Source: a virus. From it: 64,000 nucleotides of DNA. The notes below the pieces were generated by a model, which saw only the letters and a program-made list of their open reading frames with translations, did not search any database and had not been told where the DNA came from. Position numbers and translations under genes: made by a program. This document shows positions 39,435 to 58,883 of this stretch, one piece after another (the first letter of the stretch is position 1; each line of letters opens with the position of its first letter). The stretch is taken from IMG/VR virus record IMGVR_UViG_3300027844_001828, positions 171,625 to 235,624 of that record. The stretch is one strand, 5' to 3'.

Positions 39435-39758
39435 ATGAACAACGAAAGAATTGCGAGACAGCTGGTAAAGATTGCCGGTGAGTTAGTAGGAGCAAGTAGA
39501 GCCAAACCCAAGGACAAAAAAAGTCCTTTCGATAATGCAGTCGATAAATATGAAGACATGGTGAAGGACGGGTATAGCCACGCTGATGCTTTGAAACATA
39601 CCAAGAGTTCTTTCCCAGGATTGACAAAGACAGATGAGAAAGATATCTCGAAGGTCAAGAAGCTCTTTGGCGATCACCGACTTACAGCCGAGGGAATTTC
39701 GACAGGCAGAACGGCAGCCAAAATCATCACGGTTGGAAAGTACAAGTTCAAATGGTAA
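39435..39758 (+). CDS. Protein with IARxLVxIAxE N-terminal signature, 107 residues
   Basis: The first 20 residues (NNERIARQLVKIAGELVGAS) form an amphipathic helix shared by several otherwise different proteins here (49298, 57681, 57970, 58296, 58698). The core is acidic/basic helical with a possible DNA-binding centre. A shared N-terminus on unrelated bodies suggests a targeting or cleavable propeptide. Confidence 0.65.
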   Translation: MNNERIARQLVKIAGELVGASRAKPKDKKSPFDNAVDKYEDMVKDGYSHADALKHTKSSFPGLTKTDEKDISKVKKLFGDHRLTAEGISTGRTAAKIITVGKYKFKW

Positions 39759-39854
39759 TGACATTAACTCCAGCGAAGGAAGAGGCATTATGCGAGTTGC
39801 TGTAGGAACAATTAGTCCCATGATCCTTTTCCATATGGCTTGTGTCAATTCAGA

Positions 39855-39947
39855 GTGAAACATGAGCATGCAACGTTCGTTGGCGAGACTCTCAAGTCTC
39901 TTGATGTTGAGGAATACGAAATTAAAACAATAACCATCGAGGATTGA
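39855..39947 (+). CDS. Micro-protein, 30 residues
   Basis: GTG start (or TTG 39840). KHEHATFVGETLKSLDVEEYEIKT looks like a genuine beta-alpha unit. Its stop is 3 bp before the next ATG. Confidence 0.4.
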   Translation: MKHEHATFVGETLKSLDVEEYEIKTITIED

Positions 39948-39950
39948 TCC

Positions 39951-40688
39951 ATGGAAAAGCTTTTTCAAGGTACGTTATCTGTCTGGAGTGGTTGCGTTTA
40001 TGCTCAGGCGAGGCCTTTTACTTATGAAGACTTCGAGTTTTTCGATCTTTCTGTTTCAGAGAAAGGGGGAACCAGCAAGTATGCGTCGGTGACAAAGGCC
40101 TTTCGATTGAAACAAGAGGTTCTCGACGAAGTCGTTTCAGAAAGTTGCCTCAGTATTGGCAAGGGCTTCTTCATGGAATGGGATAAGATAAAGAATCATT
40201 ATATTTATGTCACACAAGACATCAAGTATAATGGCTGTCGGACTTTGGCTTCGAAAGTTGCCAAGTATGATAAGGCCTGTGCGGAAGTTATTTATCGCTG
40301 GAATGAGATTGGCGACTCCTTGGTTGAGAAGCGCATCGAAGAAATCAATGAGGACTTTCAAAGGTTGTTGTCCCGGTCTCGTGAGGATTACCTTCAGCGG
40401 TACACTGAATTCCTCTCAAACTTGAGAGGGTACGAGCAATCAGAGTTGATCGAAGAGTCTGGCACAGCTTCTGATATTCTCATGCTTGATGAGATGGGAA
40501 AGGCGGTCATGGCCTTGGAGAGATCAATTAATTCTAGGAAGTACGCTTGTCTTTTAGAATCATTCGAGTTGCCTGATAAGGGCAGCTGGATCAACGAGCT
40601 TCCCACTGAATTGACTGAGCAGGTTATTTTGAACTTGAGAAAAAGTGTTGATAACTCAGTTCCGGAATTCCGAGGAGTTTTGACTTAA
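39951..40688 (+). CDS. Hypothetical protein, 245 residues
   Basis: A mostly helical protein with a long charged helix (about residues 120-155). No motif recognised. Followed directly by a GTG-started gene. Confidence 0.6.
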   Translation: MEKLFQGTLSVWSGCVYAQARPFTYEDFEFFDLSVSEKGGTSKYASVTKAFRLKQEVLDEVVSESCLSIGKGFFMEWDKIKNHYIYVTQDIKYNGCRTLASKVAKYDKACAEVIYRWNEIGDSLVEKRIEEINEDFQRLLSRSREDYLQRYTEFLSNLRGYEQSELIEESGTASDILMLDEMGKAVMALERSINSRKYACLLESFELPDKGSWINELPTELTEQVILNLRKSVDNSVPEFRGVLT

Positions 40689-40689
40689 G

Positions 40690-40959
40690 GTGAAAGACCC
40701 CAGGAACATCAGCGAATTTACAAGTAATCGAAAACCCCCTCCTGAACCATCAAGCAAATCTGAAAAAGAATTGTATTGGGCTCAACAGATTGCCGAGATG
40801 TTCTCAGAGAAAGAACAGAAGGACAAGGCGGGTGAAGTCGTAGGTTACTGTATTGAAGAGGGTTACGACTTGCTCGATATATTTCGAGCGTTAGTGGTTC
40901 TTAACTCGGCCTATGAACGTGAGAAGTTAAAAGTATTAAACCTCCAAGAAAAAACTTAG
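40690..40959 (+). CDS. Hypothetical protein, 89 residues
   Basis: GTG start 1 bp after the previous stop. An N-terminal Pro-rich part and then helices (LYWAQQIAEMFSEKEQ). No motif. Confidence 0.55.
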   Translation: MKDPRNISEFTSNRKPPPEPSSKSEKELYWAQQIAEMFSEKEQKDKAGEVVGYCIEEGYDLLDIFRALVVLNSAYEREKLKVLNLQEKT

Positions 40960-40966
40960 AATGGAG

Positions 40967-40995
40967 TTGTAAAGATCTTCATTTAACGGTATAGT
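40967..40995 (+). promoter_or_regulatory. Promoter
   Basis: TTGTAA (40967-40972), 17 bp, TATAGT (40990-40995); leader of about 50 nt to the ATG at 41053. Confidence 0.75.
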
Positions 40996-41052
40996 AATTG
41001 GTGTTAAGGGGCATATTGCCCAGAGGTGAAAAAGCGAACAAGGAGAAGGCTT

Positions 41053-41439
41053 ATGAATATAACTGTGAGACAATTTGCTCAGATCAACAACATGTATCCA
41101 CCTAATTTGGCGGACATGGATTACAAGACCCGTAAGAAGGTAGAGGCCAAGGTGTATGCGAGAGCCTCGGCGGTTGTTAACTATCTCCTTACGATCAATG
41201 CAATCACTGATACTGGCAAGAAAGTGCAGGCACGTGGTGGTATTGGGCGAAGTTCGGTCGTGTACAGCGTACCAGCCGGTGCGATTCATTTGACCTTGGT
41301 TGCAGAAGGCACCGATGTTCCTGAGGATACCCCTTATCCTGAGAAGCCTAAGGCAGAAGAGACCACACCAGAGGTAGATACAAACATGACTACCACTGAG
41401 AATGAAGAATCAACGGAGCCTGTGGAAGCGTCAGCGTAG
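41053..41439 (+). CDS. Hypothetical protein with acidic Thr/Glu tail, 128 residues
   Basis: ATG follows AAGGAGA. The first 90 residues are compact (VRQFAQINNMYPPNLADMD, ARASAVVNYLLTINAI) with a winged-helix-like order; the tail is Thr/Glu/Pro-rich. Ends before a strong terminator. Confidence 0.65.
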   Translation: MNITVRQFAQINNMYPPNLADMDYKTRKKVEAKVYARASAVVNYLLTINAITDTGKKVQARGGIGRSSVVYSVPAGAIHLTLVAEGTDVPEDTPYPEKPKAEETTPEVDTNMTTTENEESTEPVEASA

Positions 41440-41460
41440 ATCCTGAGAAGTTGTAAGATG

Positions 41461-41496
41461 GTGCTCGTCGGGGAACCCGGCGGGCACTTTCTTTTT
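41461..41496 (+). terminator. Intrinsic terminator
   Basis: A 12-bp GC-rich stem (GTGCTCGTCGGG with complement), a GAA loop and a T-run TTTCTTTTT. Confidence 0.9.
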
Positions 41497-41511
41497 ATTA
41501 GGGCTTGCATC

Positions 41512-41562
41512 CACTGAATGTGGGGGTATCGTATGTGTATGAACACCCACACACCCCCGGAG
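41512..41562 (+). repeat. CACTGAATG copy with TG/CA tract
   Basis: CACTGAATG followed by GTATGTGTATG and CACCCACACACCCCC. The same layout occurs at 31962, 51614 and 55432. Confidence 0.7.
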
Positions 41563-41572
41563 ACATATTAAG

Positions 41573-41926
41573 ATGGACCCTCAAAGCTACAATACCTTTC
41601 GCACCATGTTCCAACGTGGTGAGATCACTGGTGAGATCACCCAGTTCGGTGCGGATGAGGTGAAGGGTGATACCAACTTTGGTCATGCACAAACACTTAC
41701 GCCAGAACAGTATCTGGGTCTTGTTACCGACCCTCTCCAAGAAGTAGCTGCACTTTTGAGTTCTCGCTTCGGTCTTGGTCTTGTTGACATCGACGAAGAG
41801 ATGGCGATTCGTAATTTAGTGGAAGGCTCTACGCCAGAAGCTATTGTGAATGATATAGAGACTAAACAAGACCTTGATCGTAATGATCAAGGCCCCTACG
41901 GATTGGGGTTACAGGGTTGGATTTGA
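41573..41926 (+). CDS. Hypothetical protein, 117 residues
   Basis: Acidic, mixed fold; possibly helical bundle (EEMAIRNLVEGSTPEAIVND). Preceded by GGAGACATATTAAG. No family known. Confidence 0.6.
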   Translation: MDPQSYNTFRTMFQRGEITGEITQFGADEVKGDTNFGHAQTLTPEQYLGLVTDPLQEVAALLSSRFGLGLVDIDEEMAIRNLVEGSTPEAIVNDIETKQDLDRNDQGPYGLGLQGWI

Positions 41927-41981
41927 ACAGGTCTTAAACACTTCTGTGTCGTATAATATACATATATCTACAGGAGATGAC

Positions 41982-42047
41982 ATGTTAAAGATACTACAAA
42001 CAGAATTAGATAGAACATCAATAATTAAACAACTATCATCGGAGTAG
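41982..42047 (+). CDS. Micro-protein, 21 residues
   Basis: ATG after ACAGGAG. Amphipathic helix KILQTELDRTSIIKQLSSE. A TATAAT box lies at 41952. Confidence 0.4.
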   Translation: MLKILQTELDRTSIIKQLSSE

Positions 42048-42050
42048 ATT

Positions 42051-42143
42051 GTGACTCATATGGAATTAGTAGGATGGTATGCAATAGGCTTTTTTGTAGT
42101 ATATGTATTGTTTTATGTATTAGAAATCATAGAAATTTCATGA
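42051..42143 (+). CDS. Micro membrane protein, 30 residues
   Basis: GTG 42051 or ATG 42060. One membrane helix (WYAIGFFVVYVLFYVLEII). Confidence 0.4.
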   Translation: MTHMELVGWYAIGFFVVYVLFYVLEIIEIS

Positions 42144-42150
42144 GAAGAAG

Positions 42151-42447
42151 ATGATGAGTTTCCAGGAGGCGCAAGCATGTCACTTAAAGCATTGCTTGTT
42201 CTTCGTTAGAAAGATAGGTTCTGATGAGTCTGAGCCGTTAGAAACGGCAAAGCTTTTGAAAGACAAGACTCACGTATTTTTTCAGGCTTAGCTTATTCTA
42301 AGCGCATTGAAGCCGGTCACATATTAGTCCCTGCCCATCCTCCGTCCTCATCAACGAGGCGACCGCCAAGTATACACCCGCGAAGAGTTCGATGCTGAAT
42401 ATGAGTGGGTGGGCTGCTCCTACCCGCCACAATCGAGCGGGTCCTAA
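42151..42447 (+). pseudogene. Remnant gene with several frameshifts
   Basis: Protein-like pieces follow each other in different frames: SLKALLVLR (after AGGAGG at 42165), RKIGSDESEPLETAKLLKD, then GLAYSKRIEAGHILVPAHP, then VYTREEFDAEYEWVGCSYPP to TAA 42447. Each joins at a small indel, so a gene of about 95 codons has decayed. It ends at a palindrome. Confidence 0.5.
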
Positions 42448-42450
42448 CTT

Positions 42451-42484
42451 GGTTCACTGTATAAAAACTTTTATACAGTGGACC
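42451..42484. repeat. 34-bp palindrome, copy 2
   Basis: GGTTCACTGTATAAAA, centre AC, complementary right arm. Lies 51 bp before the next -35 box. Confidence 0.95.
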
Positions 42485-42534
42485 GTAGTGATAGGCACCC
42501 GGAAGTCTTTTTCCTAAAAACTCCTCAAGTGAGC

Positions 42535-42562
42535 TTGTAACCAACGAATGATGGGTTATTGT
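42535..42562 (+). promoter_or_regulatory. Leaderless-type promoter
   Basis: TTGTAA (42535-42540), 16 bp ending ATGGGT, TATTGT (42557-42562), ATG 6 bp downstream at 42569. Confidence 0.75.
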
Positions 42563-42568
42563 GTGAGT

Positions 42569-42790
42569 ATGTCAAAAACAATCCAGATCAAAAAGGGCTG
42601 CGAGTGTGGTAGCCAGAGGTTCAATGCAGATCGATTGATCCGCGTTGAAATCATTGTTGACGAGAACAATATGTTCGTTGAAAATATAGCTGGCGGCGAT
42701 GCTGTCTCTATTGTTGACGACAAACCCCCAGAGGGACCGTACACTTGTGTTGAGTGTGAGTGCGAGTACGACACCCTTGATGGAGAATGA
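42569..42790 (+). CDS. Zinc-ribbon protein, 73 residues
   Basis: KKGCECGSQRF at the start and YTCVECECEY at the end give two CxC/CxxC knuckles around a beta-rich centre, a typical small zinc ribbon. Leaderless start after the promoter. ATGA overlap with the next gene. Confidence 0.7.
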   Translation: MSKTIQIKKGCECGSQRFNADRLIRVEIIVDENNMFVENIAGGDAVSIVDDKPPEGPYTCVECECEYDTLDGE

Positions 42791-43053
42791 TGCCTACCAA
42801 ACGTAAGTTTTACCGTACTGTTCTTGCTATCGAAGTTCTTAGCGAGACGCCCATTTCGGCCTGTACTTCATATCAGGACATTCTTCGTGAAGCTGAAGAG
42901 GGTGATTTCTCTCATGCTTCACTTCCTCAAGAGGTATACAATCAGGAAATAGACGGGCGAAAATGCGCTGAGCTTTTGGTTAGGCAGGGTAGCGATTCTG
43001 GTTTTTTCCAGTTGACAGATATTGGGGAGGATGTCGAGGATTATGATGGATAA
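42787..43053 (+). CDS. Hypothetical protein, 88 residues
   Basis: ATGA-coupled. KRKFYRTVLAIEVLSETPI begins like a small phage beta protein; acidic end. Family not recognised. Confidence 0.6.
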   Translation: MMPTKRKFYRTVLAIEVLSETPISACTSYQDILREAEEGDFSHASLPQEVYNQEIDGRKCAELLVRQGSDSGFFQLTDIGEDVEDYDG

Positions 43054-43171
43054 ATTGTATGTTCCTTATGTGACGGAAAGGTGGGTAGTGATACCGCACA
43101 CCTCAATCAAGATAAATGGATCGGAGAGTGTTGCTGGGATGAAAGACTCCGGGGGACAGAATAATGGCTGA
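43043..43171 (+). CDS. Small protein, 42 residues
   Basis: Overlaps the previous gene by 11 bp and the next by 8 bp. Beta-like VTERWVVIPHTSIKING segment. Confidence 0.45.
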   Translation: MMDKLYVPYVTERWVVIPHTSIKINGSESVAGMKDSGGQNNG

Positions 43172-43316
43172 GTTAATAGTAATTTCTGTGGTTATTTTCA
43201 TTTCTTGTGTGGTGTGTACGTTCGTTGCCACACAAAAGCAGGCGAAACCTTTGATGATCTTGCAAGGGGTTATCAGAAAGAGATCGAAGAGCTTTACAAG
43301 CAGATCGCCAACATGA
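43164..43316 (+). CDS. Small membrane protein, 50 residues
   Basis: N-terminal membrane helix (LIVISVVIFISCVVCTFVAT) with a basic tail. Its stop overlaps ATG 43313. In the next frame, upstream of 43313, the piece FDDLARGYQKEIEELYKQI also looks coding, so helix and downstream domain may once have been one protein. Confidence 0.5.
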   Translation: MAELIVISVVIFISCVVCTFVATQKQAKPLMILQGVIRKRSKSFTSRSPT

Positions 43317-43687
43317 TCGAATTTGTCCCATTCACAGCCTGGAGAATTGTGTATGAGAATAAGATGTTCATTGTAAAAAGCGAACAGATTAATATACGCA
43401 GGATTGTAAATGGAGAAATCCGATATATGGTTAGCACTGGCATGTTCTGCACTGGGATGTTTTCGACTCTTTATGACAGTCGAGACGACATTCCTAAAGG
43501 TAGGGGGAATTCCCGCACATGGTATCACCATGCTCTTTTCAAAGATGAAATTGAAGCGTTGCTTGCCATTCAAGGGTTGGCGCAAGAAATTTTGAAGACT
43601 CGCAACGATTCACATCAAGAAGACGTTTTACCGCTTCACAAATCAATCGACTCAAACGCCAAACGCTTAAAGGAACTCGGAATATGA
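43313..43687 (+). CDS. Paralogous AWKV-family protein (copy 3)
   Basis: ATGA-coupled start. EFVPFTAWRIVYENKMFIV matches the SFTAWKVIDCNRRSVVV start of copy 1 (26413-26859), though the C-terminal KG(T)xxCExIKC motif is missing. A longer form from TTG 43205 is possible. Function unknown. Confidence 0.6.
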   Translation: MIEFVPFTAWRIVYENKMFIVKSEQINIRRIVNGEIRYMVSTGMFCTGMFSTLYDSRDDIPKGRGNSRTWYHHALFKDEIEALLAIQGLAQEILKTRNDSHQEDVLPLHKSIDSNAKRLKELGI

Positions 43688-43860
43688 AATACATTCGCAG
43701 AAATCCGCTGGAAAAAGACTTTGGTTGGGGAAAATTAAAATTAAGAAGTTGGGATAAAATTAAAAATGAGCTTGACAAATGCGATCTTCTTTGTGGAAAT
43801 TGCCATGATGAAGCGCATCAAGAAATTAGAACTGGAACTATTTTTACCCCAATAGCTTAA
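43684..43860 (+). CDS. C-terminal HNH endonuclease fragment overlapping tRNA
   Basis: The 58-residue product (SWDKIKNELDKCDLLCGNCH then DEAHQEI) is the end of a homing HNH nuclease: W..I..EL.KC.LLC.NCH..xH. The N-terminal CxxC half is absent. It is ATGA-coupled, and its last 5 codons lie inside the tRNA-Arg gene, so the fragment reads into the tRNA. A similar fragment precedes the second tRNA. Confidence 0.7.
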   Translation: MKYIRRNPLEKDFGWGKLKLRSWDKIKNELDKCDLLCGNCHDEAHQEIRTGTIFTPIA

Positions 43861-43920
43861 GGGATAAAGCAGTGGATTTCTAATCCACATATTCAGGTTC
43901 GAATCCTGGTTGGGGTACCA
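43846..43920 (+). tRNA. tRNA-Arg (UCU anticodon)
   Basis: Acceptor ACCCCAA pairs with TTGGGGT (43910-43916); anticodon stem GTGGA/TCCAC encloses TTTCTAA with TCT at the anticodon; the T arm has GGTTCGAATCC. Discriminator A and an encoded CCA follow. It reads AGA codons, which are very common in this window, so it supports phage translation. Confidence 0.93.
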
Positions 43921-43974
43921 GAATTAACTTAATTAACTGCTTGATAAATTTCAAAACGGAGATAGAGTAACAGT

Positions 43975-44103
43975 ATGCAAGAAATACTCACAACCTTAAT
44001 TGCCTTGGGGGCCTTACACTTTACATCGTGTGGAACATTTCCTACACCCTCTCACATTTTCATTGGTGTCAATAGGACTTACGAAAATACCTTTCGTGAG
44101 TAA
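43975..44103 (+). CDS. Small lipoprotein, 42 residues
   Basis: Signal-like start and lipobox (LHFTSC, Cys at 19), 23 residues after the Cys. Similar in size to Rz1-type outer spanins. CGGAGA precedes the ATG by 12 nt. Confidence 0.5.
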   Translation: MQEILTTLIALGALHFTSCGTFPTPSHIFIGVNRTYENTFRE

Positions 44104-44314
44104 AGATCCTGATAACGTAACCTGTTGTAGCGTAACCTGCTTCAGTCCATTAGGCGGGTTCGCCTGGCTGCGAGTTCCAGGGGGGTGCGGAACTGTTCGC
44201 AATTGAGACGGTAACGCACAACACGGAGGACTGAGCAATAACTGCGCAAAACTATCGCACATACCGGCGCAAGTACGATACTACCATCAAACATAAACCA
44301 AACGAGGCTGAATA

Positions 44315-44941
44315 ATGAGTAAAGCAACCATCATGGCTGGCATCGACAGCGACAGCAGCCGCGTCATCGCCAACAATACAGTCGAGTACACTGTTGGCAA
44401 AGCCCGTACAATACGGCTGCATTCGACGGACGTCATCACCTTCGATGCGCTCGGCGGCGTGACGCTGGACACGGGGGGCTGGCTAACCCCGACCACCAAA
44501 GACCGGATAAACCAATTCCAAACCGCTGCTCGGTTGCACAGCGAGCGGGGGATCTGGTACGCTACCATCGGAGGCAAGCGGTACATATATCAAGACGGCC
44601 TCCGCATCGGGCCACGCGGCGGCGTCACGGGCCACGCTGGTCCGGCAGCGATCAAGGCGCAGCGTAAAAAAACTAAGCAAATCAAAGCTTACTGCGATGC
44701 TATTCGGGCGCTGGATACGTTGCCAGAACCAGAACCCGGTGACTGTTTTATTTGTAGTGGTTTTAAAGGCACCGATTGTCTGCAAAGTCACCTGGATGAG
44801 ATGTATATACACGGGTCACTCATTAGGCGCGCAATGGAGGCGCGTGGATACAGCGAGTTTGCGCTGCGATTTGCCTATCAGATCGACAATCGTGACACAG
44901 TTGTCCGTGCAGTCCTAGCCTATTTCAAGGCCAACTGCTAA
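44315..44941 (+). CDS. GC-rich hypothetical protein, 208 residues
   Basis: Codon use is clearly more GC-rich than its neighbours, and 44130-45000 as a whole stands out. The N-terminal part has TVEYTVGKARTIRLHSTDVI and DALGGVTLDTGGWLTPTTK, a pattern I recall from environmental phages; the C-terminal part has CFICSG...CLQSH. Likely recently acquired. Confidence 0.65.
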   Translation: MSKATIMAGIDSDSSRVIANNTVEYTVGKARTIRLHSTDVITFDALGGVTLDTGGWLTPTTKDRINQFQTAARLHSERGIWYATIGGKRYIYQDGLRIGPRGGVTGHAGPAAIKAQRKKTKQIKAYCDAIRALDTLPEPEPGDCFICSGFKGTDCLQSHLDEMYIHGSLIRRAMEARGYSEFALRFAYQIDNRDTVVRAVLAYFKANC

Positions 44942-45014
44942 TCCACCGGATCGTCCGCTCTGATAGGCAACTCATCCCAGCACCAACGCAGTCTAATCAG
45001 CCATCGCATAGATC

Positions 45015-45380
45015 GTGATCTCGCTCATTGAAGTTTACATTCGGCGCGATGTTTCCATTGTAGAGGCCGAGGAATGGATTTGGGACAGACATGGGCGTGG
45101 ATTCACGAAACTCAAGGATTTTCATTGTGACCGGCCTTATATCGCCTTCATTCGTACACATGATGGGTTCACTCGGCAAAGAATTGGCAAAAGGTTACTT
45201 TTCAAGGCGACTGGGATCATTCAGGACAGGTTAGGCCTCGCCGGTATCCATTCAGGGGAAAGTTCGACCAGAGGTACTGGTGGCCGGGCGTTCTTTACTT
45301 ATATTGAGCGTTACTATAGGCATCGATTGAAATCTAAGAATCTCCCAGGTTCCCGCAAAAAAGATTATGTTATTGTTTGA
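45015..45380 (+). CDS. GNAT-like N-acetyltransferase, 121 residues
   Basis: GTG start. RQRIGKRLLFKATG fits motif A (Q/RxxGxG/A) of GNAT enzymes, and GLAGIHSGESS...GGRAFFTYIERYY fits the following strand and helix. It is short, so the N-terminal part of the fold may be reduced. Substrate unknown. Confidence 0.5.
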   Translation: MISLIEVYIRRDVSIVEAEEWIWDRHGRGFTKLKDFHCDRPYIAFIRTHDGFTRQRIGKRLLFKATGIIQDRLGLAGIHSGESSTRGTGGRAFFTYIERYYRHRLKSKNLPGSRKKDYVIV

Positions 45381-45404
45381 CATTTCGACAATCTGCATTA
45401 TGGT
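45377..45404 (+). promoter_or_regulatory. Leaderless-type promoter
   Basis: TTGACA (45377-45382), 16 bp, TATGGT (45399-45404); ATG at 45413 is 8 bp downstream. Confidence 0.75.
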
Positions 45405-45412
45405 AGGGCATC

Positions 45413-45433
45413 ATGAACAAACACAACTTCTAA
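45413..45433 (+). CDS. Leader peptide, 6 residues
   Basis: NKHNF follows the initiator Met at the predicted transcript start. The main gene starts at 45473 with AGAGGAA. Confidence 0.3.
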   Translation: MNKHNF

Positions 45434-45472
45434 GCACATCTCAGCCAACTTAAATCAACAGAGGAATTAGAA

Positions 45473-46114
45473 ATGTCTTTTCATGGAATGATAGATCGAA
45501 TAGCTGGTGCAGCAGTTAAGACTGCTATAGATTGGGCACCAGTAGAAGAGGGTTTGGATTATTGGCCAGTTGAAAAGCAACAATCTGAATTGGATAATGC
45601 TCAAAAGGTTTTCAAGAAATCTCTTCAAGATGGTTCGTTTAGGAAACTGCATGCAATCATAAAAGGTCGCAGTACTTACTATAATGCTACATCAGATCCT
45701 AAGGCTTTCTCTTTTCATGCTCCTATCGCATTGATGTTGGATGCCATGAATGAGCTTGGGTGGAGAGGGCTTGAGGATGACATATCAAGATTGGTGGCAA
45801 GAAGGGTATATGAGAATCCAGATTCTGGCATCAAGATAATGAAAGGTGAAGGTGATACGTTTGTAGCATTTCTTCCTTCTTCAAGTGCAAAGCCGGTTGA
45901 TAGGCGTAGTAGCGATAAGACTGCCAGTAAGTATATCCTTACTGTTGATGATTCTGTTGAGGCTCACAAGTTGGAGAGTATGGCAGATGATTTGAAGGAT
46001 GTGGAGTATGACAACTATGATGTTTACTCTACAGATAAGGATGGTCTCAAGAAGCTGAAGAGTGAATTGAATAAAAAAGGAATTAATTCTGAAGCAATAA
46101 AGACACGTTGGTGA
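45473..46114 (+). CDS. Hypothetical protein, 213 residues
   Basis: RBS AGAGGAA. A soluble two-part protein: a helical part (residues 1-130) and, after KTAS, a ferredoxin-like part (SKYILTVDDSVEAHKLESMADDL). No family recognised. Confidence 0.65.
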   Translation: MSFHGMIDRIAGAAVKTAIDWAPVEEGLDYWPVEKQQSELDNAQKVFKKSLQDGSFRKLHAIIKGRSTYYNATSDPKAFSFHAPIALMLDAMNELGWRGLEDDISRLVARRVYENPDSGIKIMKGEGDTFVAFLPSSSAKPVDRRSSDKTASKYILTVDDSVEAHKLESMADDLKDVEYDNYDVYSTDKDGLKKLKSELNKKGINSEAIKTRW

Positions 46115-46228
46115 TCTTAACGTAGGGATCTTAACGGACCTCGATAAGGGGAGAGACGAGCCAGTTAATAAGACAGTAGAAAAAACAATCGGATTCAATT
46201 TAATCATCAAACACTCAAGGAAGGTATC

Positions 46229-46441
46229 ATGTTGTTAGGCTTAATTTAATTTATTACTGTGACGATCTGGGCTTGGTTAATTCCGGCTGGAGTTTCAGCT
46301 TTGATTTTGATTGCTGGACTCTTTATCGTTTTTGTTAAATTAAGGGATGATGGTACAGACGAAGAGGATCAATGTGTTGTTGGATACATCTTCGTAATCC
46401 TTTTCGTCTGTCCTTGGCTTGCTTACTTTCTTATCGTATAG
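46229..46441 (+). pseudogene. Two-helix membrane protein with in-frame UAA
   Basis: ATG 46229 follows AAGGAAGG, but TAA occurs at codon 7 (46247). The same frame then encodes two membrane helices (IPAGVSALILIAGLFIVFV, VVGYIFVILFVCPWLAYFL) to 46441. Re-initiation at GTG 46259 could rescue it. Confidence 0.5.
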
Positions 46442-46466
46442 GTGTTTGTTTAGGGACCGTAGCACA

Positions 46467-46624: not shown

Positions 46625-46641
46625 TTTCTTTTCAATAACGC

Positions 46642-46669: not shown

Positions 46670-46675
46670 ACCTCC

Positions 46676-46891: not shown

Positions 46892-46893
46892 GT

Positions 46894-49297: not shown

Positions 49298-49597
49298 ATG
49301 AATTTTGAACAGAGAATCGCACATAAGCTTGTCGGTATAGCTGAAAGGTTAATAGTTGTCGGTGAGATTAGAAAGCCTGCCGATGTAGATCAGAAGTTCT
49401 GGGAAGCATTAGTCGAAGCAGCAGACGATGTTGTGGATGGTAAGGGTAATTTTAAGAACCATGTCAAGAAATTAAAGAAGCAATTCCCTACTTCAGATGA
49501 GGAAGACATTACTTCCATAATGCAAGAAATGATTGGCCACTCTGAAAGGCTTGCAGCTGATCGGGGAACTTTGGTTCATAGGTGCTCGTGTCTATGA
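49298..49597 (+). CDS. Protein with IAxxLVxIAE N-terminal signature, 99 residues
   Basis: NFEQRIAHKLVGIAERLIVV is the shared N-terminal helix (see 39435). The middle (KKQFPTSDEEDITSIMQEMIGH) also resembles the 39435 protein (KSSFPGLTKTDEKDISKVKKLFGDH), so these two are full paralogues. ATGA overlap with the next gene. Confidence 0.65.
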   Translation: MNFEQRIAHKLVGIAERLIVVGEIRKPADVDQKFWEALVEAADDVVDGKGNFKNHVKKLKKQFPTSDEEDITSIMQEMIGHSERLAADRGTLVHRCSCL

Positions 49598-52190: not shown

Positions 52191-52524
52191 GACCGAAGAA
52201 GAAGCTATGAAAAAGGGAGACGAACTCCTTGCTATGATGAAAGGTGATGGCTGGGAGCTTAGTGTTCACGAAAACATGGGGTGGCACTACAGTGTTCGAA
52301 ATGGCCCCATGCAGATGCAGTCAAGCTCTTCCGGTGGAACCACCACATATTCGATACTTCTTGGCGGGAGCTTGGTGGTCCGCACCGCCGGTGTGTCACA
52401 CTTTCTTGTTGAAGACTGGTACGCCGACCCGAACGAAGCTGTTGAAGCACAAATCTATAAGGCAAAAGAGTTCGTTCTCTCACAGGTCGAGTTGTTGACC
52501 CACATCATAAAGTGTTGTGTTTAA
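52177..52524 (+). CDS. Hypothetical protein, 115 residues
   Basis: Mixed fold with GWELSVHENMGWHYSVRNGP, beta-rich, like a small binding domain. A terminator follows. Confidence 0.6.
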   Translation: MDSSETEEEAMKKGDELLAMMKGDGWELSVHENMGWHYSVRNGPMQMQSSSSGGTTTYSILLGGSLVVRTAGVSHFLVEDWYADPNEAVEAQIYKAKEFVLSQVELLTHIIKCCV

Positions 52525-52556
52525 CCAACAAACGTAACACATCCAGAAGATTTATC

Positions 52557-52593
52557 AAGAGCCTCGACGAAATATTATCGTCGGGGCTTTTGC
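52557..52593 (+). terminator. Intrinsic terminator
   Basis: A 14-bp stem (GCCTCGACGA core with its partner), a 7-nt loop and TTTT. Confidence 0.88.
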
Positions 52594-52643
52594 GTGTACG
52601 GCCCATTGAGGTGATCGCCGAGGGACTCCCTTCCACCTCGCTT

Positions 52644-52677
52644 GGTTCACTTTATAAAATGTTTTATACAGTGGACC
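52644..52677. repeat. 34-bp palindrome, copy 3
   Basis: GGTTCACTTTATAAAA, centre TG, TTTTATACAGTGGACC; one mismatch against the consensus left arm. Confidence 0.93.
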
Positions 52678-52746
52678 GAAACGGTTTGCCGTCGCTGGCG
52701 GTCGGGGCCCCCGATATCGCCAGCTCTTCAGGCTCATGTTGCTCCT

Positions 52747-52780
52747 GGCTCACTGTATAAAACATTTTATACAGTGGACC
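52747..52780. repeat. 34-bp palindrome, copy 4
   Basis: GGCTCACTGTATAAAA, centre CA, TTTTATACAGTGGACC. Only 69 bp after copy 3 and 76 bp before the next promoter. Confidence 0.95.
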
Positions 52781-52855
52781 GAAACGGATAGGAGCCGGGC
52801 TCCCTGGTGAGACAAAATGACACACATTATTTTCGAAAATAGTCTTTTATCAAGC

Positions 52856-52883
52856 TTGACATAAACGTTTGGTGAGTTAGAGT
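52856..52883 (+). promoter_or_regulatory. Leaderless-type promoter
   Basis: TTGACA (52856-52861), 16 bp with GTTTGGTGAGT, TAGAGT (52878-52883), ATG 6 bp on at 52890. Confidence 0.85.
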
Positions 52884-52889
52884 CATTGC

Positions 52890-52925
52890 ATGCATCGAAA
52901 AATCATCATCCAACTCGGAGTTTAA
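52890..52925 (+). CDS. Leader peptide, 11 residues
   Basis: HRKIIIQLGV follows Met at the transcript start. The CGGAG of the main gene lies within it, and it stops 2 bp before ATG 52928. Confidence 0.5.
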   Translation: MHRKIIIQLGV

Positions 52926-52927
52926 TC

Positions 52928-53557
52928 ATGGACCTTGTACCCGGAACACTTGCAGTTCATCGTGGCAGTATTGTTTTCGTCACCAGAGTCGAAAACGCGA
53001 AAAAGTATCCCATCATCTTCAAGAAAGCGTTACAGGCGAAGGGGACATATCACGACAGAGCCACCGGCTTTTCTTCTGTGATCGGCTCATTTGACTTGAA
53101 GCAGTTCAACGAACTCTCCGGGTCTCCGGCGCGAACCATTGAAGCTGACGATGACGTTGATCTCGATGCGGTGGAAGTTTACATTAAGGGGTTGAACATC
53201 GATGATGATCTCCTCTTGAAGAGTGGTAAGACAGCGAAGTATCGCGGATGGGTATCGCGTCGTCCAGTGATGCCAATCTCAGCCACTATCAATGGTAGGC
53301 CGTTTAAGCTCCGGCCCGACAGCATTGTCCTCCCGAAAGATAAACGTTCTGAGGATGTAATCATGGAAGAAGTCCTTGATGTCTACTGCGGTCTCTCGCC
53401 GGAAAATCTTACCAGTGACGGTGAAGTGAGAGCCTCGGCGGTTGTTAACCAGCGTTATCGTGAGTTGAAAAAGCAGCTTCGCGGCTTGTGCAGTGAACTT
53501 GGCCGTGATGTCAGCGAGACAGAAGCGTACTCTTATCCCGGAAACATGAACAAGTAA
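52928..53557 (+). CDS. Hypothetical protein, 209 residues
   Basis: Starts DLVPGTLAVHRGSIVFVT; mixed alpha/beta with a basic middle (RGWVSRRPVMPISATINGRPF). The end is charged helical. No family recognised. Confidence 0.65.
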   Translation: MDLVPGTLAVHRGSIVFVTRVENAKKYPIIFKKALQAKGTYHDRATGFSSVIGSFDLKQFNELSGSPARTIEADDDVDLDAVEVYIKGLNIDDDLLLKSGKTAKYRGWVSRRPVMPISATINGRPFKLRPDSIVLPKDKRSEDVIMEEVLDVYCGLSPENLTSDGEVRASAVVNQRYRELKKQLRGLCSELGRDVSETEAYSYPGNMNK

Positions 53558-53567
53558 CTGGAGAATT

Positions 53568-54260
53568 ATGATGTCTGTGATCCAACTCAATACCGAGCAT
53601 GAAAACCGAAGTGAGACATGGGACGGGGGGAGTGATCTTCCTGACGGCCTGTCTGTCAAAGAGATTCCTACCACCTATCAGTATGATGGTAAGACCGTAT
53701 CTTACTCATACAAGCGGTATACCTATCCCGAACTCGGCTCACCCCGGATGTATGACAGCATGATGGGCGGCGTCATCGTCCCCATTAGCGGGAAGAAGTA
53801 TCGCATCATCATTGAAGTCAATTACTATGATGATGTTCCAAGTAACGCTATCCTCACGTTCATTCCGACCGACGAGTCAGAGACGGAATTCACTCCCTAT
53901 GATGTAGTTGCGCATCACAAGATGCTCGTCGAAGAGATGAAGAAACGTCGAGACAATTATCTTGAGGAAGATGATGAAGATTATAACCTCTTCTACAAGA
54001 ACATGGCAGCAGAGGAACAGCACAACATTGATCAGATTGAAATGGGCGATTATTCCTATTCTTCCGGGAGCAAGGTCAAGTTGTTTGGTCAACCGGACTT
54101 CGTTCAAGATGGAATGTTTCCACTTTATGAAGGACGCATCGCTCGCCACCTTGTCACCTTTGAAGATAACTGGGGTGACTCTGGGAATACCAACATCATG
54201 ATTGGTCTTGATGAAGCCGGAATCCCAGCAAAAGCATGGTTCGAGGCAAGTTGTTGCTAA
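53568..54260 (+). CDS. DUF1963/YwqG-like protein, 230 residues
   Basis: The C-terminal part (KLFGQPDFVQDGMFP, then HLVTFEDNWGDSGNTNIMIGL) follows the DUF1963 pattern of G.P.W/F.Q and W.DxG. The N-terminal part is beta-rich and acidic. TAACTGGAG precedes the ATG. The family has no settled function. Confidence 0.5.
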   Translation: MMSVIQLNTEHENRSETWDGGSDLPDGLSVKEIPTTYQYDGKTVSYSYKRYTYPELGSPRMYDSMMGGVIVPISGKKYRIIIEVNYYDDVPSNAILTFIPTDESETEFTPYDVVAHHKMLVEEMKKRRDNYLEEDDEDYNLFYKNMAAEEQHNIDQIEMGDYSYSSGSKVKLFGQPDFVQDGMFPLYEGRIARHLVTFEDNWGDSGNTNIMIGLDEAGIPAKAWFEASCC

Positions 54261-54276
54261 TCTTTTCAAAAGTGGC

Positions 54277-54304
54277 TTGAAATTTTCACAACCTACGTTA
54301 TAGT
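54277..54304 (+). promoter_or_regulatory. Promoter
   Basis: TTGAAA (54277-54282), 16 bp, TATAGT (54299-54304); leader of about 50 nt to ATG 54363 with GGGAGG. Confidence 0.8.
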
Positions 54305-54362
54305 ATTATCAACGTCAGCAAAAGTTGACAGTAACTGAAACCGCCACCAATGGGAGGCACTT

Positions 54363-55427
54363 ATGAGCGCAGGAATCATACCCGGAGTCGATGCAGGATG
54401 TATTGGCTACAAGGAACATTTCGGGGGTACCTGGCATGGGTTCCCGGAGTACGAAGTTATCGATGGCCCAGTCTCAATGGAACAGACCCGTAAAATTCTT
54501 GAGCATGAAGTTGTCATGAATCCGGTAACGTTGACTGGTGACTTCGAAGGCGAGGAAACCGAGATGTTCGCTCTTGTTCGCAAGGACACTGGCCGCGTCC
54601 TTTACAAAGAGAGCGTGTCGGATGAGTATTACATCACCCAGAACAAGGCGTTTCTCGACCAGCTTCAGTTGCGTATCTTGACCCCAAACCCGCAAGTTTC
54701 AATCGAATCCACCGGTACGCTCTTCGCCTTCCGCGTCGGTTTCGTGAACTTGCTTCTCAATCGGTTCCGTGTCAATGGTGATGACAGTGAGACAATCGCT
54801 CGTCTCATGTACTACAATGCGTTCGGTGGTCGCAGCATTACAGCTGGCGCACACACCACTCGTATCGAATGTGCCAACACGATGAACATGGCCGAAGCGC
54901 AAGCTTACGCTAACGCAACGATCAAGAAGTTCAAGCATACAAAGAATGCTGAGAAACGTCTTGCTGACCACCTCGTTGACTTGGGCGAGATGTATTCGCT
55001 CATGGAAACGCACAAGGACGCACTCAACTGGCTTTCTTCGCAGACTATCAACTCAACGGAAGTTCAGCGGTTCGTTGGTAACCTCTTCGCCCTCCCAGCC
55101 AAGGCTTCGAAGACGATGATCAGTCGGCGAACCAGAGAGCGGGGCGAACTCTTGCAACACTTCGAGGACTGTGACAATCTTCAGGGTGCGATTGCGAGGA
55201 CTCGATTTTCCATGCTTCAGGCTGTTATCTGGTACGCGAACAACAACAATATCCGTGGGGATAGTGACATGGCGTATTCGTACTTCAATACGGTTTCCGG
55301 CGGGACACGTGATGCCTTGAATCAGCAGGCGTTCAGGCTCTTGACTTGTCAAGACATCCCGCTCCCAGTCGTTGACATCACTGAACCGGAAACGGCGGGT
55401 GAGACGGAACTTGCTCCCGCAGAGTAA
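54363..55427 (+). CDS. DUF932 phage/plasmid-type protein
   Basis: The 354-residue product contains EMFALVRKDTGRVLYKESVSDEYYITQNKAF, FAFRVGFVNLLLNRFRV and HTTRIECANTMNMAEA, matching the DUF932 order (fluent strands, QN helix, R(I/V)xCxNT). The family is common in phages and plasmids, with no settled function; links to recombination or replication have been suggested. RBS GGGAGG. Leader promoter at 54277. Confidence 0.82.
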   Translation: MSAGIIPGVDAGCIGYKEHFGGTWHGFPEYEVIDGPVSMEQTRKILEHEVVMNPVTLTGDFEGEETEMFALVRKDTGRVLYKESVSDEYYITQNKAFLDQLQLRILTPNPQVSIESTGTLFAFRVGFVNLLLNRFRVNGDDSETIARLMYYNAFGGRSITAGAHTTRIECANTMNMAEAQAYANATIKKFKHTKNAEKRLADHLVDLGEMYSLMETHKDALNWLSSQTINSTEVQRFVGNLFALPAKASKTMISRRTRERGELLQHFEDCDNLQGAIARTRFSMLQAVIWYANNNNIRGDSDMAYSYFNTVSGGTRDALNQQAFRLLTCQDIPLPVVDITEPETAGETELAPAE

Positions 55428-55431
55428 CGTC

Positions 55432-55466
55432 CACTGAATGCGCACACGGGGGAGGGGTTTCCTCCC
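55432..55466 (+). repeat. CACTGAATG copy and small hairpin
   Basis: CACTGAATG (55432-55440) then CGCACACGGGGGAGGGG and TTTCCTCCCCCATT, a GGGGGAGG/CCTCCCCC hairpin that could end the DUF932 transcript. Confidence 0.65.
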
Positions 55467-55812
55467 CCATTAACATCTGAGGTAAAATTATGAGTCGTAA
55501 TTAGATTCATGTATCAAGTACAGACAGTTTTTTTGGCAGAGCGAGATCGACAGGTATCTTTTTGGTGGTTACACAGTTGTCCCACAAACAACTACGATTG
55601 TTATTTCTGGTGAAAAGAAGTTCTTCAGTATGTTCATGAATCCACCGAAGGAACGCGAGGGTGATTCGATCACTGATGAAGATTAAAAGAAATTTCACAA
55701 TACGGTTTGTATTTAATTCGATGCGTGTCATATTGTGATTGTTAAGGCCGAATGTGGGGTTTGCCACCACAAAATAAACACCAAACATGTTCAAGCAATG
55801 GAGAACACCAGC

Positions 55813-56178
55813 ATGAGCGAGAATCAAAACGAGAATGAATGTGCCGATGGTGCCGAGACTCAGGTGCCGACAACGAATCAGCGTGGCCGGGCGAAGGGTT
55901 CCGTGACTGCCGCTCAGAAGGAATCGATGCAGAATGGCCGTATCGCTGCTGGCAAGCGCAAGGCAGCGGCGATCAAGGTCATCGAGAAGAACGATGCCTT
56001 CACGAAGGCTTCGACTTGGCGCAACGTTGACCCGACCATTACGGCGGCGATCATCGACGCGGCAACCGAAGGCGGAGCAAAGGCGCAGGACAAGCAGGAT
56101 GCGGCTCGTGCCGTGGCTCAGTCCCGCATTAACGCCATCGACGCTGAACGGGCGCAGTTGGTTGCAGACCTCGGCTAA
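55813..56178 (+). CDS. Ala/Lys-rich basic protein, 121 residues
   Basis: ATG after TGGAGAAC. The product (RGRAKGSVTAAQKESMQNGRIAAGKRKAAAIK) is rich in Ala, Lys and Gln, like H1-type or DNA-compaction proteins; the C-terminal half forms helices. A GTG at 55735 directly after a -10-like TATTGT would give a longer form. Terminator follows. Confidence 0.6.
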   Translation: MSENQNENECADGAETQVPTTNQRGRAKGSVTAAQKESMQNGRIAAGKRKAAAIKVIEKNDAFTKASTWRNVDPTITAAIIDAATEGGAKAQDKQDAARAVAQSRINAIDAERAQLVADLG

Positions 56179-56204
56179 GACAGCCGAACGTCGAATATTA
56201 GTAA

Positions 56205-56242
56205 AGAAAAGCCCCACCGGGAAACTGGTGGGGCTTTTCTGT
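56205..56242 (+). terminator. Intrinsic terminator
   Basis: A 14-bp stem with AAAAGCCCCACC and its complement, 8-nt loop, then TCTGTTTT. Confidence 0.92.
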
Positions 56243-56297
56243 TTTCCCGGCTCGCCGATCTTTACCCCCTTGGCGAGACCTCCTGGTGACCTCGGCT

Positions 56298-56331
56298 GGC
56301 TCACTGTATAAAACATTTTATACAGTGGACC
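56298..56331. repeat. 34-bp palindrome, copy 5
   Basis: GGCTCACTGTATAAAA, centre CA, TTTTATACAGTGGACC; 56 bp after a terminator and 60 bp before a -35 box. Confidence 0.95.
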
Positions 56332-56390
56332 AAAACGGGTGGTCTCGATCAGACCAGGGCTGACCTCTCATATTTCTTTTCAAGAACAGC

Positions 56391-56418
56391 TTGCAATGTT
56401 GAAGATGCGATCTATATT
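56391..56418 (+). promoter_or_regulatory. Promoter
   Basis: TTGCAA (56391-56396), 16 bp, TATATT (56413-56418). An ATG 4 bp downstream (56423) opens a 10-residue frame; the first real gene is at 56593, leaving a leader of about 170 nt with no gene. Confidence 0.7.
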
Positions 56419-56592
56419 GTTGATGTGTATAGCACAAGCTACCTCACAGGGGTGAGGGGAAATGCATCAATCGGAGAAAACGGTTGAAGTGCAGGAGGGA
56501 TTCTACTCCTTTAAGTACAGGTATGAGCTGCGTTTTTGCGAAGTATCAGTGGCTTGAATCCTGTTACATACTAACTTAACAAGGGGGATGAG

Positions 56593-56808
56593 ATGAATGA
56601 TGGGAATAAAAATCTCAAACTTGATCTAATGCTTCTGGGCAACAAGCTCGTGACTGAGTATGGATACCCGACGGGGAATCAGATGATCGGATCGTCATGG
56701 TTCCTGAATGCAGTGAACAATTTTACAGAAGCTTTGAACGAGGCACCACCAGAGGTGCTGGAACTCCTGTCAGAATTTGGTTACGATTGGCCTGTTGTTG
56801 AAAAATGA
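56593..56808 (+). CDS. Hypothetical protein, 71 residues
   Basis: Helical acidic protein (LDLMLLGNKLVTEYGYPTG). Start after AAGGGGGATGAG. No motif. Confidence 0.6.
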   Translation: MNDGNKNLKLDLMLLGNKLVTEYGYPTGNQMIGSSWFLNAVNNFTEALNEAPPEVLELLSEFGYDWPVVEK

Positions 56809-56833
56809 AATAGGAGAAACAGAGGTAGCGTAG

Positions 56834-57220
56834 ATGGAAATTAATAAAAAACGAATCAGGGTGACCTACGAGATTATCACACCTGAGTCTTCTGCCAACG
56901 GAGATGTTGCAGAGAGTGGGTGGCTCGATGAGGGGGGTAGAGACTTCCGTCTACCTCTTTGTCCGAGTAGCCCTGAAGGAGATACCCCAGTTGCTTTCGC
57001 TATTGATCACCTGAGATGTGAGGGAGCAACCAGTGATGGGGGTAGTGAATGGTTGACTGCCTACGGGGATATGGAAACTGACGGTAGCGTGACCAATACA
57101 TCCTTCCACCTTGTCGAAGGTGAGTGGACTGACGAGGAAATTGATGAAATTCATAGAGCTTTGTCGCCAGCACCATATAACGCAGCAGCATATGCTGCCA
57201 AAATGAGAAATAAAAAATGA
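56834..57220 (+). CDS. Hypothetical protein, 128 residues
   Basis: Beta-rich start (KKRIRVTYEIITPESSANGD) with an acidic Gly-rich middle and a helical Ala-rich end (PAPYNAAAYAAKMRNKK). The start RVTYEIITPESSANGD is a pattern frequent in phage small proteins. ATGA overlap. Confidence 0.65.
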   Translation: MEINKKRIRVTYEIITPESSANGDVAESGWLDEGGRDFRLPLCPSSPEGDTPVAFAIDHLRCEGATSDGGSEWLTAYGDMETDGSVTNTSFHLVEGEWTDEEIDEIHRALSPAPYNAAAYAAKMRNKK

Positions 57221-57522
57221 AAAAGACCATCGATTACTACACAGAGATGTGCGTTGACGGAAGTGGACGAGTAGTTCTGATGCGGGAAGATAGCGATAAC
57301 TATGTAGAGGAAGTGACCATCGTTGAAGGGACGAAATACTCCTCTGGCTATAGCGTGACAGCAATGGATGTTCAGGCAGCTATCACACAGGACATCATGC
57401 GAAACTGTGTCAGGGTAGATTACCGACTGTCCCCTGACGTAGACAAGGGCGACAATAGGACTACTCGATACGAGACTCCCCAGTACGCCAATTGTGAGCC
57501 TGTATTACCTTCCCGTAAATAA
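57217..57522 (+). CDS. Hypothetical protein, 101 residues
   Basis: ATGA-coupled. Beta-rich start (YYTEMCVDGSGRVVLMRED). No family recognised. Confidence 0.6.
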   Translation: MKKTIDYYTEMCVDGSGRVVLMREDSDNYVEEVTIVEGTKYSSGYSVTAMDVQAAITQDIMRNCVRVDYRLSPDVDKGDNRTTRYETPQYANCEPVLPSRK

Positions 57523-57541
57523 AAAAAACAGGAGAAACCAG

Positions 57542-57577
57542 ATGAGTAATGAGTTTCCCCTTGCAATAGTTAGGTGA
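57542..57577 (+). CDS. Micro-protein, 11 residues
   Basis: CAGGAG precedes the ATG by 7 nt; SNEFPLAIVR follows. Possible leader peptide. Confidence 0.3.
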   Translation: MSNEFPLAIVR

Positions 57578-57606
57578 AGAGAGAGAAACCTAACAAGGAG
57601 GAAACG

Positions 57607-57669
57607 ATGTTTAAGTCAGAGTTTGCAATCAAGGCACTGATTCTCGTGTGTGGTCACCCAACTAACTAA
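57607..57669 (+). CDS. Micro-protein, 20 residues
   Basis: Strong AAGGAGG before ATG; hydrophobic helix FAIKALILVCG. Confidence 0.4.
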   Translation: MFKSEFAIKALILVCGHPTN

Positions 57670-57680
57670 GGAAAGGAACA

Positions 57681-57980
57681 ATGAACAATCAAGTGATAGC
57701 TAATGAATTGGTGGCAGGGTCAACGGCAAAAGGGCTTTTCGATGCTATTATGATGGATATAATGCCACGGGCATCTGTCACTGTCGATTTTGGTATCGAT
57801 TCAAAGAAGCACTATGAAGCTTTATATTATCCTATTAGGTCAGGCGAGATTGATTTACAAGATTTAGAGAGAGTGGTGGGAGATGGTCCTGCTATTACGG
57901 ATCTCGTGAGAAAGAGCAAGGGAAATCCTCATCGGAACATCACATTTACAACCAGCTATGATGGCAAGTATGGACAATAA
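57681..57980 (+). CDS. Protein with IANELV N-terminal signature, 99 residues
   Basis: NNQVIANELVAG is the shared start. The rest is mixed alpha/beta, unlike the others. AAGGAAAGGAA precedes the ATG, the same leader form as at 58943. Confidence 0.65.
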   Translation: MNNQVIANELVAGSTAKGLFDAIMMDIMPRASVTVDFGIDSKKHYEALYYPIRSGEIDLQDLERVVGDGPAITDLVRKSKGNPHRNITFTTSYDGKYGQ

Positions 57981-58299
57981 TAAAATAGCTAATGAACTTC
58001 TGAAAGTGGCTGAAAGCCTGATCGCTGGGAGAGGTTTCACCAAACAGCGCACAGAACCACTTCCGGATGTGAACGGGGTGTGGCGAAAGGTTTGGTTCAA
58101 CTACCACCCTGATGGAACTATGGAGATTCAACTCTCTTCAACGGCAAAGATCGAGTTTGGGTTCAGTACCTATGTGGACAGAGATTGGGGGATTTGGGAT
58201 ACGAATCAATTGGATGACCTTTACAAAAACATTCGGAATGGCAAGATGCCAAGAGGATTCGTCCACACAGAGGGTGCCAAGTTCATACCTGAACAATGA
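57970..58299 (+). CDS. Protein with IANELLxVAE N-terminal signature, 109 residues
   Basis: Start chosen at ATG 57970 because DNNKIANELLKVAESLIAGR then aligns with its paralogues; ATGs at 57958 and 57961 are alternatives. Beta-rich body (RKVWFNYHPDGTMEIQLSS). ATGA overlap with the next gene. Confidence 0.65.
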   Translation: MDNNKIANELLKVAESLIAGRGFTKQRTEPLPDVNGVWRKVWFNYHPDGTMEIQLSSTAKIEFGFSTYVDRDWGIWDTNQLDDLYKNIRNGKMPRGFVHTEGAKFIPEQ

Positions 58300-58682
58300 A
58301 TCAGAAAATAGCATCTGAGTTAGTGGATATGGCTGAGAGGGTCGCTGCAAATAAAACTCTCTTGGATTATGATGGGGATGATGCAGAAATAGCTGATGAC
58401 TTGGAAGCGGCATTGAGTTATTTTCTTGGCGGTTCTTCAGAGGTGAACAAGACTGAGATCATTTTCTATGAAGAAGAAACACGAAAGGGTGAATCAGTTC
58501 AGATATCGGTAACGGTGGAAAATCAATGGCGGAATCTTTTAGTCGGTCTCTACATCACAGGGGAAAATGGTGATGGACCCACATACGAGGACGGTATGTG
58601 GAGCTTTGATATCACCGATTCGGTTCGAGAAGTTGCCAAAACCATTGGACAAGCTGCTCAAAAAGTACTCAAAAAGTTCTAA
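58296..58682 (+). CDS. Protein with IASELVxMAE N-terminal signature, 128 residues
   Basis: NQKIASELVDMAERVAANK start. Body beta-rich (EIIFYEEETRKGESVQISVTV) then a helix (VREVAKTIGQAAQKVLKKF). Coupled by ATGA. Confidence 0.65.
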   Translation: MNQKIASELVDMAERVAANKTLLDYDGDDAEIADDLEAALSYFLGGSSEVNKTEIIFYEEETRKGESVQISVTVENQWRNLLVGLYITGENGDGPTYEDGMWSFDITDSVREVAKTIGQAAQKVLKKF

Positions 58683-58697
58683 ACAAGGAGAGAAACA

Positions 58698-58883
58698 ATG
58701 AATCAAAAAATAGCAAGTGAGATGGTGGAGAAGGTTGTGAATAGGGTTGCTGCTGGTGTAGCTTCCGAGGCGGGATTGTATCACAGGTTTACAGGCACAA
58801 TTAGTGTAAAAAACGCAATTTTTGAACTAAAGAGAGACGGAAAAATAGATTGGAAAAAAGGAACTTGGGTAGCTGGAAAGTAG
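58698..58883 (+). CDS. Protein with IASEMVExV N-terminal signature, 61 residues
   Basis: NQKIASEMVEKVVNRVAAG start; the body is short and basic. AAGGAG precedes the ATG. Fourth consecutive gene with this start. Confidence 0.65.
   Translation: MNQKIASEMVEKVVNRVAAGVASEAGLYHRFTGTISVKNAIFELKRDGKIDWKKGTWVAGK

Follow-up and report, generated by a model that had tools for sequence, protein, structure and literature searches.

Known terminal targeting sequences and the tag described here

In phage T4, an N-terminal sequence of 10–19 residues brings unrelated internal proteins into the core, with targeting and processing residues that are separable, and C-terminal processing is also known (PMC9026906). 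The jumbo phages phiKZ and SPN3US likewise package and eject many proteins, and their proteases cut after S/A/G-X-E and AXE (PMC13282480, PMC10052503); for the SPN3US protease gp245, which cuts after AXE, Ser is preferred as the next residue (PMC10052503). The SPN3US propeptides are mostly long (111–254 residues, with two of 20–24) and are not described as one common helix. Encapsulation into bacterial microcompartments and the loading of encapsulins also use a short terminal docking peptide on unrelated cargo. We focus here on a short helical tag common to six proteins of IMG/VR record IMGVR_UViG_3300027844_001828. The window, by which we mean the whole stretch of DNA analysed, is the final 64 kb of this 235.6-kb phage record (G000). 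Given the T4 precedent, a capsid-core docking tag is the most economical account, and we regard it as rather probable that the tag is a capsid (prohead-core) docking helix, through which unrelated proteins are enclosed in the head and delivered to the host with the DNA.

By analogy, a tag working like the T4 capsid-targeting sequence (CTS; found on IPI, IPII, IPIII and Alt) would be the best reading. Both are short, N-terminal, transferable and present on unrelated proteins, the T4 target being the prohead core. There are also differences. First of all, the tag is a helix motif of two heptads in which two alanines are invariant, and it can be N- or C-terminal. Second, a single contig of 139.6 kb has about 29 tagged proteins, the highest number, whereas T4 has a handful. 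Third, the tag-bearing relatives of the window's phage have a protease of phrog_18299 and not of S77, and a capsid protein of phrog_2522 and not gp23. Finally, for the tagged proteins described here, packaging is predicted and cleavage is possible. The microcompartment and encapsulin peptides resemble the tag as well, although its destination is probably the phage prohead instead.

A common helix motif on unrelated proteins

Six plus-strand proteins of the window, named here by the positions at which they start (39435, 49298, 57681, 57970, 58296 and 58698), have a common start of 11–20 residues with the pattern M-x3-5-I-A-x-[EQK]-[LM]-[VL]. Extended beyond this first half, the consensus of the tag reads M-x3-4-[IV]-A-x-E-L-[VL]-x-[IVL]-A-[KR]-x-L-x-A; the full tag is present in four of the six, with the first half only in 57681 and 58698. 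The initial annotation had described nearly identical N-termini on these six proteins with the rest diverging, and this is borne out, as all six are present and their bodies are mutually unrelated (6/6). It had also proposed a motif search of the proteins of the genome; searches of the whole 235.6-kb record with two profiles, A1 built from the six window leaders and A2 from 52 leaders, return precisely the same six proteins and none further. In the window, seven open ATG frames have the core regular expression at residues 4–7, whereas shuffled N-termini give 0.12 on average and 1 at most. Where window leaders have a residue in common, they also use the same codon in 31% of pairs, compared with 33% expected from codon usage. 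As the synonymous codons are thus near random, the likeness is maintained at the protein level, with the peptide under selection, and does not reflect a recent duplication of DNA.

Other contigs with the tag, several of them multi-copy, were found with a degenerate DNA pattern of the motif in a viral contig collection. Profile A2 gives 31 matches in G001 (139.6 kb), 17 in G003, 15 in G009, 13 each in G004 and G008, 12 in G012, 5 in G002 and 6 in the window's record, and none in Xanthomonas phage XacN1 (385 kb) or in LR745208 (485 kb). At a threshold of at least 13 bits, nine phage contigs totalling about 550 kb contain 87 tag helices. Of these, 72 lie no more than 25 residues from the frame start, a further 14 have a start codon at the motif and one is C-terminal. 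At the same threshold, matches are absent from the reversed versions of these frames and from 245 kb of control phages, 250 kb of bacterial loci and 120 kb of the rest of the window's record. When bacterial genomes were scanned, 34 isolated single matches were obtained, all of them under 13 bits in the profile. A tblastn search of phages with the 23-residue consensus, which is too short a query, gave no match. Literature searches in an open-access library found no description of this tag. XacN1, considered as a close relative, was dropped; it lacks the tag and has a T4-type capsid protein.

When the first Ile/Val of the tag is numbered 0, conservation among the 87 helices is 99% for Ala1, 85% for Glu3, 94% for Leu4, 92% for Val/Leu/Ile5, 95% for Ala8, 81% for Lys/Arg9, 79% for Leu11 and 88% for Ala/Ser/Gly13, percentages that are inflated because the motif itself served to select the sequences behind the profile. 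Past position 13, there is no strong residue preference. Variation is lowest at the two alanines and at the leucines of the helix face. The spacing is that of two heptads, with [IV]-A-[KR]-E-L-V-x repeated, so that Leu and Ile/Val lie on one face with Ala flanking. The hydrophobic moment of the leaders is 0.51, compared with 0.28 when shuffled, and the mean net charge of the tag helix is about +1. We would read this pattern as that of a helix packing against another helix.

The 84 tagged bodies fall into 71 families, and none are related within a contig (26/26 unrelated in G001). They include a tRNA nucleotidyltransferase/poly(A) polymerase with an HD domain in G001, whose homologous gene in G003 is tagged too, as well as a rubrerythrin-like protein and zinc ribbons with a WGR domain. 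Zincin-like bodies with HExxH motifs, which have no Pfam match, and an ADP-ribosyltransferase (ART)-like body in G003, which gives nothing significant in Pfam, were assigned by sequence only. Residues 12–95 of 57681, its body, are about 51% identical (1.5e-28) to the C-terminal part of a longer G004 protein that starts differently. In G003, one zincin is tagged N-terminally, and a homologue (24% identity over 255 residues, 1e-15), whose body begins almost at the protein start, ends with AKELIYIAKSLIS. A third zincin homologue, in LR745208, starts with a different leader, VAFRHLLAS, also seen on an ART-like neighbour. These comparisons support the view of the tag as a transferable terminal element, carried by assorted proteins at either end.

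Tagged genes and the head module

In most relatives, tagged genes lie inside or beside the head module, which comprises the protease (phrog_18299), the scaffold and the major capsid protein (MCP; phrog_2522), and an MCP of this family is encoded on contigs G001, G002, G004, G008, G009 and G012. The region at 110.8–129.4 kb of G001 contains the genes for the MCP (phrog_2522, 4e-53), the head maturation protease (phrog_18299, 3e-11), the portal and the terminase; one tagged gene (115841–116365) is the second gene upstream of the protease gene, and the largest group of tag genes, at 72–91 kb, has tail genes on one side and head genes on the other. In G009, the protease gene shares the 4 bases at its 5' end with a tag gene, and seven flagged tag genes of G008 lie downstream of the MCP gene and at most 6.6 kb from it, four of them just past an open reading frame (ORF) of 72 residues. 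In G007, the genes run from the tag genes through protease, small C-tagged protein, scaffold, acidic core protein and decoration protein to the MCP, where decoration, scaffold and core are names assigned from position and composition. A prohead protease gene, for which the initial annotation had suggested a search, is not found as a T4-type S77 protease in the window's record; a phrog_18299 protease, on the other hand, adjoins tag genes in G001, G004 and G009, and the protease of G007 is called by sequence likeness. Furthermore, a small acidic protein between scaffold and protease has a C-terminal tag helix in G001 (LARRLVAMAKRLMT), G004 (VASSLIKIAKSLLG) and G007 (IAGKLLSLAEALITE), the latter two scoring 10.6 and 12.2 bits, respectively, and thus under the 13-bit cut of the count.

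Two further features were seen in G008. A helix-like stretch in a scaffold-like protein (KVAGMLVKLAQTILAED), picked out by eye and below the profile threshold, is left out of the evidence. The head maturation protease gene (L141:12273–14537) has an apparent intein-like insert of about 420 residues (CFVAGTRVLMANGT... VIVHNC).

Since the tagged genes of the relatives surround the genes that build the shell, the tag is probably an address label for head loading. The basis in hand for a docking tag consists of the common helix motif, the unrelated bodies, the selected peptide, the terminal position, the transfer and the clustering with head genes in relatives. In such a scheme, the tag would fold as a two-heptad amphipathic helix and would most likely bind the scaffold or the core while the prohead is growing; the small effector and enzyme domains that bear the tag would be packaged into the head and then injected into the next host with the DNA, and the window's phage would use its tag likewise. 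The capsid-targeting propeptide of the initial annotation is partly supported, in its targeting part, by the relatives through the transferable tag, the head-gene clustering and the C-tagged head-module protein, but not as a propeptide that is generally removed.

Several points weigh against head loading. The window's record is without T4 gp23 (PF07068), the S77 protease (PF03420), the phrog_9 terminase and the phrog_2522 capsid protein, and its six tag genes sit among small unknown genes, away from head genes. G003, with its 17 profile matches, is also without phrog_2522 on its contig, and in G001 the majority of tag genes are placed between those for the tail and those for the head. The literature yielded no virion proteomics for any of these phages, and the inflated conservation percentages belong here as well. 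The window's record begins inside tail-like genes, and its head module is therefore probably off the contig; with no recognised head genes in this record, we infer packaging in the window's phage from its relatives. Its ties to the other contigs are the tag, the body of 57681 and several replication and metabolic genes, for instance a ribonucleotide reductase 48% identical to that of G003.

The phrog_2522 capsid lineage is that of phage G, Tunturi_5 and LR745208. Bacillus phage G and the huge phage LR745208 have the same capsid-protein family, with MCPs 38% and 69% identical, respectively, to that of G001. In either phage, several proteins, with ART-like and zincin bodies, start with a short motif of that phage's own: MKRL[IVM]K in phage G and VAFRHLL in LR745208, which lacks the tag helix. 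These motifs suggest that short N-terminal motifs may be a general practice. More tentatively, and accepting that this may well claim too much, huge phages of the phage G-type capsid lineage would use a terminal address code, with a short docking helix particular to each lineage. A head-module protein would share this helix, which would bring dozens of unrelated effectors into the head from a position at either of their ends. Bodies would move between lineages and be re-tagged, and the injected effectors of an uncultured phage would be recognisable from the tag sequence by itself. If true, one could read from sequence which proteins huge phages, most of them uncultured, inject, and a second, independent portable capsid-loading tag would stand beside that of T4. 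The tagged set (tRNA nucleotidyltransferase, zinc-metallopeptidase-like, ART-like and rubrerythrin-like proteins and many small unknowns) would then be plausible as early counter-defence and takeover factors.

As for the individual occurrences of these other motifs, six proteins of phage G (NC_023719.1; 28218, 35181, 73330, 207449, 244460 and 446709) start with MKRL[IVM]K, which is possibly phage G's own tag, and two of them are ART-like. VAFRHLL occurs on three proteins of LR745208.1 (L074; record positions 20240, 21698 and 462706), and two proteins (also L074, minus strand) have a second common start, LRSKL[IV]RLAHxNPxLRxxLLPLLKEA.

Alternative explanations

We consider first that the tag is a propeptide that directs proteins to the prohead; the head protease would then cleave behind the Glu of AxE, and the mature proteins would begin at the next residue. 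This is a special case of the docking tag, and the confidences in the two overlap. It would fit the phrog_18299 head maturation protease beside tag genes in G001, G004 and G009, the likeness in G007, and the cleavage after S/A/G-X-E and AXE by the phiKZ and SPN3US proteases (PMC13282480, PMC10052503), and AxE is indeed present at the first site in 74/87 helices. However, it is present at the second site in just 33/87, at either in 79/87 and at neither in 8/87, conservation extends ten residues past the first AxE, and the residue after the first-site Glu is Leu in 94%, where SPN3US prefers Ser. In the window, 39435 has ARQ at the first site and AGE at the second, and 49298 has AxE at neither. 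An obligatory protease site at AxE is thus not supported. With the helix conserved beyond the first Glu and Leu next to it, cleavage is possible for many of the proteins, but is not indicated as what keeps the sequence conserved. A head protease may remove the tag, though not, on present indications, as a general rule, and we regard the propeptide version as doubtful.

The tag could also dock its cargo to the tail, the baseplate or another part of the particle, or, in the infected cell, to a hub outside the virion such as a membrane or a phage compartment, which we consider unlikely. The location of most G001 tag genes between tail and head genes would agree with this, as would an amphipathic helix with a mean net charge of about +1. 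The conserved Leu and Ile/Val alternating with invariant Ala, on the other hand, resemble in our reading helix–helix packing and not membrane binding, and membrane targeting is placed low for this reason; the C-tagged small protein and the flanking tag genes in the head module also argue against a destination other than the head. It is very improbable that the likeness is a functionless by-product of recent gene duplication with the rest diverged: tag genes do often stand in tandem, but bodies are unrelated in every contig, synonymous codons are near random and a homologous zincin is tagged at the opposite end. Chance likeness of short N-terminal helices or an artefact of gene calling, for which one could cite the short motif and the two partial copies among the six, is practically negligible in view of the absence of matches in reversed frames and controls and of the seven occurrences in the window against 0.12 expected.

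The tagged genes of the window and further observations

Searches of Pfam and PHROGs with the six window proteins gave weak matches only (best E about 0.02), and a search for relatives with two of the whole proteins found none. The 107-residue protein 39435 (39435–39758, plus strand, like all six) is encoded by an ORF with a good ribosome site, aggaaagaag-ATG; its tag MNNERIARQLVKIAGELVG (39435–39491) matches the profiles at 1.1e-10 (A1) and 1.6e-9 (A2), and its body is without a Pfam family and has weak PHROG matches (E of at least 0.02). Protein 49298 (49298–49597, 99 residues) has the tag MNFEQRIAHKLVGIAERLI (49298–49354), which matches both A1 and A2, and belongs to no confident Pfam or PHROG family. 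Protein 57681 (57681–57980, 99 residues) has the half tag MNNQVIANELV (57681–57713; A2 E 0.034), fused straight to the transferred body that resembles the G004 protein. Protein 57970 (57970–58299, 109 residues), also of no confident Pfam or PHROG family, starts with an ATG at 57970 within an ORF that opens at 57958, overlapping the end of the preceding gene, and its tag MDNNKIANELLKVAESLIAG (57970–58029) is the best match in the window (A2, 9.0e-10). Protein 58296, an ORF product of 128 residues (58296–58682), has the tag MNQKIASELVDMAERVAA (58296–58349), matched by A1 and A2. Two single-sequence AlphaFold2 models were made, both of low confidence (predicted local distance difference test scores of 59 and 46), and the low-confidence model of 58296 has a helix at residues 4–18 followed by an alpha/beta body. 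Protein 58698, an ORF product of 61 residues (58698–58883) with the ribosome site aaggagagaaac, has a divergent tag, MNQKIASEMVEKVVNRVAAG (58698–58757), which matches A1 and is weak in A2 (E 0.076). Adjoining the tag genes is a complete alanine dehydrogenase-like gene (59490–60578).

A second common N-terminus, [MV][ND]WYK[KS], is found on four proteins of the window's phage (window 23943–24146 and G000:C1:112633, 114789 and 169731; L191–L194), and it was found in none of nine other records searched and not in the backward control. A phage-encoded PARP with WGR and regulatory domains lies at 9228–10667 of the window. Six copies of GGYTCACTGTATAAAACATTTTATACAGTGGACC, with the palindrome CTGTATAAAA / TTTTATACAG, occur at 33482, 42451, 52644, 52747, 56298 and 62473, possibly as an operator or other regulatory element. 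The sequence GAGGTTAGAGTA occurs shortly 5' of three start codons, at 37080, 59072 and 63430 (one copy mismatched), compared with 0.21 expected by chance, and its copy at 37080 overlaps the end of an exact repeat of the 42 bp at 35002–35043.

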